DNA from: an uncultured Opitutia bacterium
GTDB lineage: Bacteria > Verrucomicrobiota > Verrucomicrobiia > Opitutales > Opitutaceae
Assembly (NCBI GenBank): GCA_903940425.1
Contig: CAJAKX010000255.1
Coordinates: 1-36,948, forward strand
DNA length: 36,948 nucleotides
Direction: 5' to 3'
In this document: one piece after another, positions 15,423 through 30,563 of the stretch
Layout of the letters: every line of letters begins with the position of its first letter
Position numbering within the stretch: position 1 is the stretch's first letter
Made by a program: the position numbers and the translations under genes
Notes under the pieces: generated by a model
Databases searched by the model: none
Told to the model about the DNA's origin: nothing
The model's input: the letters and a program-made list of their open reading frames with translations, nothing else

Positions 15423-15450
15423 TTGGGATTTGGAACTTGGAACTTGGAGT
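15423..15450 (+). repeat. Heptad array H2-right: TTGGGAT TTGGAAC TTGGAAC TTGGAGT
   Basis: Four contiguous 7-mers in the rpoA-rplQ gap. Confidence 0.8.
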
Positions 15451-15461
15451 TTCTCCCCGCA

Positions 15462-20453: not shown

Positions 20454-21572
20454 ATGCCCTCCCGAAATCCAAAATCCAAGATCCAAGATCTGGCGCTGCC
20501 CCATGTGGCGGCGTTGCATGCCTACACGCCCGGCCTCCAGCCCGGCGAACCGGGCTGGATCAAACTCAACACCAACGAAAGTCCGTACCCGCCCAGTCCA
20601 CGGGTCGTGGAGGCGTTGCGCCGCGAAATCGGCGAAGACGGGGCCTCCCTGCGCCTTTACCCGAATCCCGCGAGTACGGCCCTGCGCGAGGCTGTCGCCC
20701 GCCTGCACGGGCTCGGGGCGGACCAGGTGTTCATCGGCAACGGCGCCGACGACGTCCTCAACCTCCTCGTGCGCTGTTTCTGTGCGCCGGCGTCCGCGGC
20801 GGGCTTCACCCTGCCGAGCTATTCGCTTTATCCGGTGCTGGTCGGCATCCAGGACGGGCGCGCCGTCTCGCTTGATTTCGACCGTTCGATGAAGCTGCCG
20901 GTGGACGCCATTGCCGCGTCGGCCGCGAAGGTTTTCTTTCTCACGTCGCCCAACGCGCCGACCGGGGTCGGTTTCCGCACGGCGGACATCGAGGCGATCC
21001 TGCTCCGTTTCCACGGATTGCTGGTGGTGGACGAGACGTATGCGGCTTTTGCCGAGGAGAACGCCGCCGGTCTCCTGCCCCAACACCCCACGCTCTGCAT
21101 CGTCCGCACGCTCTCCAAGTCGCATTGCCTGGCCGGCATGCGCGTGGGGTATGCGCTGGCGCGCCCCGAGGTGATCGGCCTGCTCGACCGTGTAAAGGAC
21201 AGCTACAACGTCAGCCGCCTCGCCCAGGCCGCGGCCCTGGCAGCCTTGGGCGATCCCGATTACTACGCGGCGCTGGTCCGGAAGATCAAGGCGACGCGCG
21301 ATCGCGTCCACGGGCAGTGGACGACCAAGCTCGGCTGGTTCACCCAGCCTTCACAGGCCAACTTCCTCTTTACCGAACCGCGGGACCGCGCCGGCCGCAC
21401 CGGCCCGGAGGTGGCCCGGGGGCTTTATGACTTCCTTTATGCCCGCAAAATCCTTGTCCGGCACTTCGGGAGCCACGCCTTGACCTCCTCCTTCCTCCGC
21501 ATCAGCGTCGGCACCGACGAAGCAATGCTCGTCCTGCAGGAGAACCTCGAGGCATGGCTAAAACACGCGTAG
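20454..21572 (+). CDS. hisC: Histidinol-phosphate aminotransferase
   Basis: [86 protein letters not shown]. Confidence 0.95.
20465..20492 (+). repeat. Heptad array H3: AAATCCA AAATCCA AGATCCA AGATCTG
   Basis: Four contiguous 7-mers inside the predicted 5' end of hisC. Confidence 0.75.
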
Positions 21573-22153: not shown

Positions 22154-22181
22154 AGTTTTGAGCTTTGCGTTTTGAGTTTTG
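22154..22181 (+). repeat. Heptad array H4-left: AGTTTTG AGCTTTG CGTTTTG AGTTTTG
   Basis: Four contiguous 7-mers after the hisB stop. Confidence 0.8.
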
Positions 22182-22215
22182 GGTGGCGATCCCCCCTCAA
22201 CTCGGCACTGGCGCA

Positions 22216-22236
22216 ACGCAAAACCCACAACCCAAA
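22216..22236 (+). repeat. Heptad array H4-right (inverted): ACGCAAA ACCCACA ACCCAAA
   Basis: Reverse complement gives TTTGGGT TGTGGGT TTTGCGT, same unit family as H4-left; ends just before the hisH start. Confidence 0.75.
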
Positions 22237-25173: not shown

Positions 25174-25923
25174 ATGATCCTCCTCGGCGTCAACATCGAC
25201 CACTGTGCCACGCTCCGCCAGGCGCGCTACCGCGAAAGCGGCCGCACCACCGGCGGCAATGTGGAACCCGATCCCGTCACGCTTGCCGTCCTCGCCGAGC
25301 GCGCCGGCGCCGACGGCATCACGGTGCACCTGCGCGAGGATCACCGCCACATCCAGGAGCGCGACGTCTGGCGGCTGCGCGAAGCCATCGCGACCCGCCT
25401 CAATCTCGAGATGGCCTGCACGCCGGCCATGACGGAGTTTGCCCTCAAGCTGAAGCCCGACTCGGTCTGTCTTGTGCCCGAAAACCGCAAGGAGATCACC
25501 ACCGAGGGCGGGCTCGATGTCGTGGGCAACGAGGACCGCGTCCGCGCCGTGGTCGAGGCGATGCGCGCCGCGGGCATCGTCACCAGCCTTTTCATCAGTC
25601 CCGACGAGCCGCAGATCGAACTTTCCGCCCGGCTCGGCAGCCCGTGGATTGAGCTGCACACCGGGGCCTATGCCGAGGCCTGTCACTCCCCGCGCCGCCC
25701 GGCGGAGCTGGAGCGCCTCCGCCGCGGGGCGGCGCTGGCCCACCAGCTGGGACTGGTGGTGAACGCCGGCCACGGCATCAACTACGTCAACATCGCCGAA
25801 ATCCGCACGCTGCCCCACCTGCACGAGCTGAATATCGGTCACAGCATCATCAGCCGCGCCCTCTTCACCGGCGTCGAGGAGGCCGTGCGCGAAATGAAAA
25901 CGCGGATGAACGTGGGCAAGTAG
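25174..25923 (+). CDS. pdxJ: Pyridoxine 5'-phosphate synthase
   Basis: [62 protein letters not shown]. Confidence 0.97.
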
Positions 25924-25948
25924 CGAGCATCGAGTAGCGAGCATTGAG
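25921..25948 (+). repeat. Heptad array H5-left: TAGCGAG CATCGAG TAGCGAG CATTGAG
   Basis: Four contiguous 7-mers; first unit contains the pdxJ TAG stop codon. Confidence 0.8.
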
Positions 25949-25972
25949 CATCTTGCCGTCGCCGTCTCCCTT

Positions 25973-26000
25973 CTACTCACTACCCGCTACTCACTACTTC
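25973..26000 (+). repeat. Heptad array H5-right (inverted): CTACTCA CTACCCG CTACTCA CTACTTC
   Basis: Reverse complement carries TAGTGAG TAGCGGG TAGTGAG units, matching H5-left; ends 3 nt before the acpS ATG. Confidence 0.8.
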
Positions 26001-29114: not shown

Positions 29115-29119
29115 CGCCA

Positions 29120-29147
29120 ATTCAAGAAGGAGGATTCAAGATTGAGA
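29120..29147 (+). repeat. Heptad array H6-left: ATTCAAG AAGGAGG ATTCAAG ATTGAGA
   Basis: Contiguous 7-mers just after the dprA stop. Confidence 0.7.
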
Positions 29148-29187
29148 CGGTGCAGGCGGATCGATCTTCCGTCTTGAATCTTGAATC
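29133..29187. terminator. Long hairpin between convergent dprA and HIT genes built from inverted heptad arrays
   Basis: Arm GATTCAAGATTGAGACGG (29133-29150) vs reverse complement of CCGTCTTGAATCTTGAATC (29169-29187) = GATTCAAGATTCAAGACGG. Confidence 0.6.
29165..29185 (+). repeat. Heptad array H6-right (inverted): TCTTCCG TCTTGAA TCTTGAA
   Basis: Complement of the H6-left unit TTCAAGA. Confidence 0.7.
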
Positions 29188-29199
29188 AGCGTAAGCGGC

Positions 29200-29538
29200 T
29201 CAGCCCGGCGGCCAGTTCATCTGGCGTCCGGCCAGCAGGTGCACATGCAGGTGCGGCACGCTTTCGCAGGCGTCGGAGCCGTTGTTGATCACGAGGCGGT
29301 AGCCGCCGGCGAGGCCGAGTTTCCTGGCGACCACGCCCGCAGTGACGATCAGATGGCCGAGGATGGCCTCATCGGCGGCGGTGGCGTCACCGGCGCGCGC
29401 GATGACTTTCTTCGGGATGATGAGCAGGTGCACCGGTGCCTGCGGCTGGATGTCATGGATGACAATGCAGTGCTCGTCTTCGTGCTCGATCCGGGCGGGA
29501 ATCTCTCGCTCAATGATGCGCTGGAAGGCGGTTTTCAT
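29200..29538 (-). CDS. HIT-family protein (Hint/PKCI-like nucleotide hydrolase)
   Basis: FQRIIEREIPARIEHEDEHCIVIHDIQPQAPVHLLIIPKKVIAR; C-terminal HLHVHLLAGRQMNWPPG (HxHxH). Confidence 0.95.
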   Translation of the reverse strand: MKTAFQRIIEREIPARIEHEDEHCIVIHDIQPQAPVHLLIIPKKVIARAGDATAADEAILGHLIVTAGVVARKLGLAGGYRLVINNGSDACESVPHLHVHLLAGRQMNWPPG

Positions 29539-29545
29539 GAATTCA

Positions 29546-29576
29546 TTTCACAGGAGGGCGCAGAGCCAGCAGAGGA
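29546..29576 (-). repeat. 31-bp nonamer-built repeat, copy 1 (inverted relative to 29990-30020), abutting the GxxExxY stop codon
   Basis: Reverse complement TCCTCTGCTGGCTCTGCGCCCTCCTGTGAAA; 25/31 identical by hand alignment to 29990-30020. Confidence 0.75.
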
Positions 29577-29981
29577 TCACGCATCGGCGCCAGGCAGTAT
29601 GAGTCGGGACAAGCCGTCAGTGAGTCTGGCGACGTTGAAGTTGATCAGCAGTCCGAGCGGAACATCGAGAAGCTTCATGTAACTCAGAAGTTGGGCCTTG
29701 TGGATGGGCAAAATGGCCTCGACGGACTTTGTCTCAACCAATACGCATCCATTCACGAGCATATCGAAGCGCAGAGGCTCTTCCCTGACGAAGGTTTTAT
29801 ACCGGACCTTGACAATCTTCTGATTGAGCGAGTCCAGCCGCCGCCGCAGTTCGAGCTCCCTGGTGAGGCACCATTCATAGATGGATTCCACCAGTCCGGG
29901 GCCTTTGTCGCGGTGGACTTCGATGGCAGCGCCAATGATGACCTGCGTAAGATTGGAGGCTTTGGAGAATAGGGGATGCAT
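29577..29981 (-). CDS. GxxExxY family protein (PD-(D/E)XK-like candidate)
   Basis: VIIGAAIEVHRDKGPGLVESIYEWCL contains GLVESIY; RFDMLVNGCVLVETKSVEAILPIHKAQLLSYMKLLDVPLGLLINFNV. Confidence 0.92.
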   Translation of the reverse strand: MHPLFSKASNLTQVIIGAAIEVHRDKGPGLVESIYEWCLTRELELRRRLDSLNQKIVKVRYKTFVREEPLRFDMLVNGCVLVETKSVEAILPIHKAQLLSYMKLLDVPLGLLINFNVARLTDGLSRLILPGADA

Positions 29982-29989
29982 GGCATCCC

Positions 29990-30020
29990 TTCTCTGCTTC
30001 CTCTGCGGTCTCCTGTAAAA
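29990..30020 (+). repeat. 31-bp nonamer-built repeat, copy 2: TTCTCTGCT TCCTCTGCG GTCTCCTGT AAAA
   Basis: Inverted partner of 29546-29576, lying 8 nt upstream of the GxxExxY start. Confidence 0.75.
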
Positions 30021-30026
30021 ACAAAA

Positions 30027-30563
30027 CTACAGAAACAGCAGGTTCACGCTGGCGCTGCGGCGGCTGCGGGCCGCGGCGAGGTCGCGGATGAGCGCGAGCG
30101 ACTCGCGGTATTCGCGCTGGCGCCGGCTGGTCCAGCGGCGGCGCGGCGGACAGTGCGCCGGCCGGAGATTGGTGACGAGCAGGGTGGATTCGCGATAGCG
30201 CGCCAGGCGCCGGAGGCCCGTCAAAACATGCTCGCGGGCGAAGAGCGGCGTGACGGCGGCGGCGGACTCTGCTGCATCCCAGTGGAAAAAACCGTGATCC
30301 TGCCGGCCGTCGCAAAGGCGCTCGAGGAGACGCGCGGCGGCGGCGGCGAAAGCCGGGTCGCTGGGTTCGGCCCCTTCGATGCGCTCAGGGCCGGCCGGGT
30401 CCCCGTCGGGAGGCGGCCGTTCCGCCGGCCGGTCGGCCGGCTCGGCTAGGCTGGTGGTGATGGCCGTCTGAATCTGCTGCGCGAGGTAAAGGTCGTGGCC
30501 GGTGAGGCCCGCAAAAAGCGCGTTGATGAAGTGAAGACGGCGCAGATGGTCGCTGCTGGTCAT
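30027..30563 (-). CDS. Hypothetical protein translationally coupled to nrdR
   Basis: 178-aa ORF whose ATG overlaps the nrdR TGA (ATGA at 30560-30563); no family recognised. Confidence 0.7.
   Translation of the reverse strand: MTSSDHLRRLHFINALFAGLTGHDLYLAQQIQTAITTSLAEPADRPAERPPPDGDPAGPERIEGAEPSDPAFAAAAARLLERLCDGRQDHGFFHWDAAESAAAVTPLFAREHVLTGLRRLARYRESTLLVTNLRPAHCPPRRRWTSRRQREYRESLALIRDLAAARSRRSASVNLLFL

Follow-up and report, generated by a model that had tools for sequence, protein, structure and literature searches.

The 475-bp segment at positions 29546 to 30020 of the window, the whole 36,948-nucleotide stretch of DNA analyzed here, is probably a complete minimal mobile element, in which a GxxExxY-family nuclease would act at the inverted arms enclosing its own gene and both such units and gene-less arm pairs would be moved. 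Mobility of the unit of gene and arms is well supported: it is present or absent at orthologous sites, and copies with sharp limits occur elsewhere. Judging from sequence comparisons, the nuclease likely recognizes its arms, and we infer that it may also drive the movement of the unit.

The GxxExxY gene (29577 to 29981, minus strand) encodes 134 residues and lies in a row of co-directed genes consisting of a DUF gene (30027 to 30563), the element and a HIT gene (29200 to 29538), with nrdR upstream. The arm on the 5' side of the gene (29990 to 30020; TTTTACAGGAGACCGCAGAGGAAGCAGAGAA in gene sense) contains two GCAGAG words and ends outward in TTTTACAGGAG, a terminus that recurs in the HIT-site elements of six relatives. 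Its inverted copy on the 3' side (29546 to 29576; TCCTCTGCTGGCTCTGCGCCCTCCTGTGAAA in gene sense) directly adjoins the stop codon (29577 to 29579), and a gap of 8 nt (29982 to 29989) separates the 5' arm from the ATG (29979 to 29981). An earlier sequence-only reading had proposed these arms and this placement, and it was exact in coordinates and sequences; 25 of the 31 positions agree between the reverse complement of one arm and the other arm. Scanned independently for inverted repeats, the whole window yields the pair 29546–29574/29992–30020 with a score of 33, the window maximum, tied with one coding-region pair. The CTCTGC nonamer named in the same reading holds as the word of this locus (NNCTCTGCN) but not as a fixed repeat, the word being locus-specific and tracking the protein. 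A search of the window for CTCTGCGNNCTCTGCG with up to three mismatches finds 13 occurrences against 10.9 expected, which is not above chance; the word alone therefore carries no signal, which resides in the pairing of words around the gene. In the 3.68-Mb genome, CTCTGCNNNCTCTGC occurs five times, two of these being the window arms.

The encoded protein belongs to the GxxExxY/PDDEXK_3 family, matching TIGR04256 (E = 2.7e-35, 121.2 bits against a cut-off of 35, model positions 2 to 114 of 116) and PF13366 (PDDEXK_3; E = 3.9e-33, 114.7 bits against a cut-off of 22) above the curated cut-offs. The PF13366 match agrees with the PD-(D/E)XK assignment of the sequence-only reading, an assignment already made in Pfam. 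Across ∼177 proteins, residues E32, D73, E83, K85, Q97 and Y101 are 94–99% conserved, as is Y35, and dN/dS values of 0.04–0.20 indicate strong purifying selection. A sequence search of the PDB with the window protein found no relative; relatives came by fold search (Foldseek) with an AF2 model (pLDDT 91.7, pTM 0.85). The top PDB match is Sulfolobus SSO0001 (4ic1, E = 6.7e-4), which we take to be a Cas4, followed by lambda exonuclease and the Cas4-like ACE1. With its D…ExK and QxxxY motifs and a matching modeled fold, the protein falls within the PD-(D/E)XK superfamily, as a minimal, Cas4/lambda-exonuclease-like nuclease of the RecB type whose activity is predicted. It shares the D-ExK and QxxxY motifs and the fold with Cas4, RecB and lambda exonuclease (4ic1 SSO0001, 3slp). 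Unlike Cas4, however, it is about two thirds the size of SSO0001, is embedded in its own inverted arms and has two cysteines only, as against a four-cysteine iron-sulfur cluster and a CRISPR neighborhood; its gene neighbors are HIT, DUF and nrdR, with no cas1 or cas2 beside it.

Inverted arms are not peculiar to the window. GxxExxY genes are carried by 40 of the 57 genomes searched (the window's own and relatives), with up to 11 per genome and four in the window's own genome, where copy numbers rest on searches. For 96 of these genes, 150 nt on each side were taken and the upstream flank was aligned to the reverse complement of the downstream flank, with random placements within the same loci and flank pairs drawn from different loci as controls. 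An arm score of at least 24 is reached by 75% of genes, compared with 1.3% of random placements and 6.9% of cross-locus pairs; at a score of at least 36 the corresponding values are 52%, 0.13% and 1.9%. Under a nearly identical local-alignment score, pairs as good as that of the window (at least 32) are found at 61% of GxxExxY genes and at 0.13% of random placements in the same loci. Among 81 loci from GTDB species genomes of more than 15 phyla (Chloroflexota, Cyanobacteria, Acidobacteria, Proteobacteria, Bacteroidota, Planctomycetota, Spirochaetes, archaea and others), matched inverted arms are found at 69%, versus 1.7% at random. Given 75% and 69% against 1.3–1.7% at random, the arms are a regular companion of the GxxExxY family. 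The sequence-only reading would have been refuted by flanking repeats that were missing from other GxxExxY loci, or that were equally common around unrelated genes with no empty-site alleles; given these frequencies and the empty and swapped alleles described below, neither outcome was obtained. One unrelated family, S23, is enclosed by arms of like layout with a period of 7 nt. A minority of GxxExxY genes (L011, L028, L232, L236, L285 and L295) have arms turned outward, with GTGGTT towards the gene; here the gene perhaps sits between two neighboring elements.

Each GxxExxY arm is built from two to four copies of a 7-nt word spaced 8–10 nt apart. Word autocorrelation peaks at 9–10 nt, and the best period is 8–10 in 115 of 128 loci. 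Across loci the word follows the pattern C[AG]CNNA[G/T/A], and its actual form is locus-specific (CACGGAT, CACAGAG, CGCAAAG, CGCGAAT, GAAGCC; GCAGAG in the window), the left arm agreeing with the right. On a FastTree protein tree (176 proteins, 130 columns, near relatives included), the last letter of the word changes 7 times, whereas 300 shuffles average 28.1 changes and never go below 24, and letters 2, 4 and 5 likewise change fewer times than in every shuffle. One large clade has G as the last letter in 84 of 85 labeled members, and the other has T or A in 29 of 31. The word thus co-varies statistically with the GxxExxY protein clade. The word is not dictated by the host genome, since the four GxxExxY genes of the window's genome carry four different words. 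This covariation is the pattern expected if each protein reads its own arms.

Comparison of orthologous operon junctions inside the window's genus reveals occupied, empty and swapped alleles in sister species, as the sequence-only reading had anticipated for empty sites. At the DUF/HIT junction, the site of the window element, four species carry the GxxExxY element, another a gene-less CACTGAT hairpin and the last a sequence with the GTAGCG word. At gatA/gatB, genome G002 has GxxExxY and G000 a gene-less hairpin; G003 and G005 have an S23 four-helix gene whose words are TACTCGC. Two genomes have GxxExxY at the LytTR/ABC junction, and four have gene-less hairpins there with two different words. 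At pheS/pheT, G005 has GxxExxY and G003 a gene-less hairpin; G000 and, apparently, G002 and G004 have S23. One further site (L026) holds GxxExxY in G003, and its stop-to-start gap is four bases in G000 and G002; another (L117) is occupied in G002 and empty in G000, with flanks ∼90% identical. From these comparisons, insertion or loss leaves the neighboring genes in place. Members of the window's protein subclade are themselves spread over several sites, and G008 has two of them. Three of its genes (L146, L140 and L152 in G005, G008 and G010) lie ∼5–6 kb from gatB, the G005 copy at pheS/pheT, which suggests a shared old site.

The HIT-site copy appears to be of long standing. Across genera its synonymous sites are near saturation while nonsynonymous differences amount to ∼10% per site, and this combination with a strongly conserved protein implies long retention, which points to an element that is domesticated or moves slowly and less to a purely active transposon. 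Between another GxxExxY gene and HIT (L052, G001:C187) there are three successive right ends, and ahead of one of them lies what remains of a second GxxExxY gene, its C-terminal part, with the CTCTGC word; insertion has recurred at one spot. In G002 (L321, contig C67), an L001-type element with its 5' half deleted represents a decaying copy.

Copies at unrelated sites define the limits of the unit. Genome G043 carries two element copies 2.3 kb apart that are 96% identical from GGAATTGACTCTCGC to GCGAGAGGCCC; identity ends at, or a few bases from, the outer ends of the arms, and the flanks are unrelated. Together with the empty and swapped junctions, these copies bear out the one-gene mobile cassette proposed in the sequence-only reading. 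A search of the G043 unit against the same genome gives 80 matches, from which an estimated ∼35–40 further places with an arm remain, mostly gene-less, once the two full copies are excluded and double matches are counted once. The places that were fetched include 10 distinct gene-less inverted pairs of 104–311 bp, often with other hairpins nested inside. G043 is unusually rich in nested arm pairs (L393–L405, L410), arranged like Russian dolls, with inner hairpins that have GGCGCC cores and CTCATTC and CACGGAT words. For the window's unit, complete gene-less ACAGGAG/GCAGAG pairs also occur in the window's own genome and in congeners, with examples in G000 (C142, and C16 between gatC and gatA) and G002 (C35). 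G002 does not carry the window-subclade gene and has one detectable ACAGGAG/GCAGAG site, whereas gene-bearing congeners have several. Unbiased scans of 0.4 Mb each in two complete relatives found few hairpins; they do not form a general background.

A second, unrelated gene family shows a parallel organization. S23/IVS four-helix-bundle genes (TIGR02436) have inverted word arms at 27 of 40 loci, compared with 8% of cross pairs, and in 24 of these 27 loci the word is exactly 7 nt and contiguous. S23 and GxxExxY units share junctions. That two gene families have two repeat grammars (7 nt for S23, 8–10 nt for GxxExxY) indicates that the gene matters to the arms. The window itself holds gene-less hairpins of the S23 type: one with the 7-nt word GATTCAA (29119 to 29187), at the dprA/HIT junction, immediately past the HIT gene; one with GTTTTG-type heptad words (22164 to 22236) at the hisB/hisH junction; and one with GTAGCGA heptad words (25918 to 25999) at the end of a pdxJ-like ORF (25174 to 25923) and before an acpS-like gene. 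The GTAGCGA words also surround S23 genes of relatives. Single-sided heptad runs at 15427 to 15452 (TTGGAACTTGGAACTTGGA, rpoA/rplQ junction) and 20465 to 20490 (AATCCAAAATCCAAGATCCAAGATC, hisD/hisC junction) are possibly half-decayed hairpins.

In the mechanism proposed here, the protein would read the word of its own arms, as an oligomer on the tandem copies, and would act there as a nuclease, by strand cleavage or by processing of hairpins or ends. The unit, and gene-less arm pairs in trans, would be cut out or copied and joined again at gene junctions, preferably behind stop codons, with host replication or repair probably completing the step. In overall mode this would resemble REPIN/RAYT or an IS/MITE pair, the enzyme being different. 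Counting against it are the long retention of HIT-site copies, the lack of a target-site duplication signal and the general character of Cas4/lambda-exonuclease-type enzymes, which are end-processing exonucleases and of which none is known to transpose. More broadly, and with somewhat less than even confidence, these units may represent a class of prokaryotic mobile DNA lacking a recognized transposase, in which a Cas4-like nuclease reads the arms, moves itself and gene-less pairs and re-tunes the word, with the S23 branch as a parallel and the rRNA intervening sequences (IVSs) as a special case.

Because S23 genes, whose product has another fold, carry arms of this kind as well, the GxxExxY gene might instead be a passenger of a shared mobilizer. 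Under this main rival, itself unlikely, a separate trans-acting enzyme moves the arms or hairpins, and GxxExxY and S23 are arm-binding cargo that controls or protects the element, for example by repressing, anchoring or silencing it, without catalyzing movement. Two unrelated gene families sharing one architecture and even junctions would fit such cargo, as would the abundance of gene-less hairpins. So would the result for target-site duplication, a check named in the sequence-only reading: none is seen, and direct matches beside the arms at 118 loci equal the shuffled value. The passenger model accounts poorly, however, for each family having its own period (7 nt in 24 of 27 S23 loci, 8–10 nt in 115 of 128 GxxExxY loci), for words that track the GxxExxY protein, for the single site in G002 against several in gene-bearing congeners and for nuclease residues that are almost invariant.

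The other explanations fare less well than movement by the nuclease. It is very improbable that selection acts on RNA, with the arms forming an mRNA stem and the gene a loop cut out by RNase III as in 23S rRNA IVSs. A precedent exists in Coxiella, where the rRNA intervening sequence consists of an S23 ORF with complementary arms on either side and RNase III cuts its 28-bp terminal stem (PMC4990558), and the window unit does fold with its arms paired (z = −3.9). Selection at the RNA level predicts more G-U than A-C mismatches in the arms, yet 78 loci give 99 G-U and 107 A-C (p = 0.63), no RNA-pairing excess, which favors recognition of the arms as DNA. Moreover, the spacers between words are often not complementary, pairing does not explain tandem word repetition within one arm, and RNA excision alone yields neither empty alleles nor gene-less DNA copies. 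An Rfam search gave no match. Static junction hairpins (serving termination, processing or mRNA stability) that flank a small gene by chance, with species differences due to recombination or deletion, are already disfavored and a slim prospect: hairpins do lie directly after stop codons in operons, and some are kept between sister species (L165 10848–10901 and L166 8951–9004), but what speaks against them is that nearly the same copy stands at two unrelated sites, that empty sites have flanks 90% identical, and that the locus-specific words agree over 400 bp and track the protein. Least probable of all is a defense or toxin-type nuclease islet with autoregulatory operators as arms and ordinary horizontal transfer, for although the nuclease fold and a protein-specific word suit a repressor/operator pair, the solitary gene matches none of the PADLOC defense families, GxxExxY occurs in none of 50,697 phage records and on few plasmids (8 records), and operators leave the 3' arm, the copy limits at the arms and the gene-less pairs unexplained.

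Among known systems, the nearest analogue in mode of working is REPIN/RAYT (PMC3116915, PMC8266576). In both, the location is extragenic and a gene is flanked by inverted, palindromic-type repeats; the same genome also has dispersed hairpins that lack the gene but share its repeat, the repeat varies together with the protein, and the protein is retained vertically at some sites; RAYTs are inherited largely along species lines (PMC3116915), as the HIT-site copy is retained. The present units are nonetheless not members of that system by enzyme or by arm structure: the enzyme is Cas4-like PD-(D/E)XK rather than an HUH/Y1 transposase, the arms are tandem 7-nt words every 8–10 nt rather than single REPs, and the gene lies inside the arms, often in multiple copies at many sites. 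The 23S rRNA IVS with an S23/IVP ORF (PMC4990558), which has been termed a selfish element, is likewise a one-gene unit of ∼0.45 kb with complementary arms, and the S23 genes of this analysis share its arm layout, and junctions with GxxExxY units. IVSs, however, lie inside rRNA genes and are excised from RNA, whereas the present units sit at protein-operon junctions and have arms without G-U bias, which sets them outside the IVSs. With IS elements and MITEs they have in common terminal inverted repeats, a single gene, gene-less derivatives and presence/absence alleles. They differ from a classical IS in that they encode no recombinase of the DDE, HUH, tyrosine or serine type, lack a target-site duplication and have word-repeat arms that vary from copy to copy.

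The open-access papers searched contain no account of the element or of S23 genes with word arms; the repeat sequences are absent from the relevant papers, and GxxExxY is mentioned in two, in one of these in passing as a Cas4 look-alike. GxxExxY genes are annotated without function in more than 15 bacterial and archaeal phyla, and the origin of S23/IVS elements has gone unexplained for decades. For both families there is now an anatomy, in which inverted word-repeat arms enclose a gene, together with a natural code of specificity pairing words with proteins and clean empty and occupied alleles, so that binding of a small protein to its own word, cutting there and movement of the DNA become directly testable. 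If the proposed reading is true, Cas4-type nucleases would join the short list of DNA-mobilizing enzymes, and non-autonomous copies would account for a large share of the hairpins at operon junctions in these phyla.
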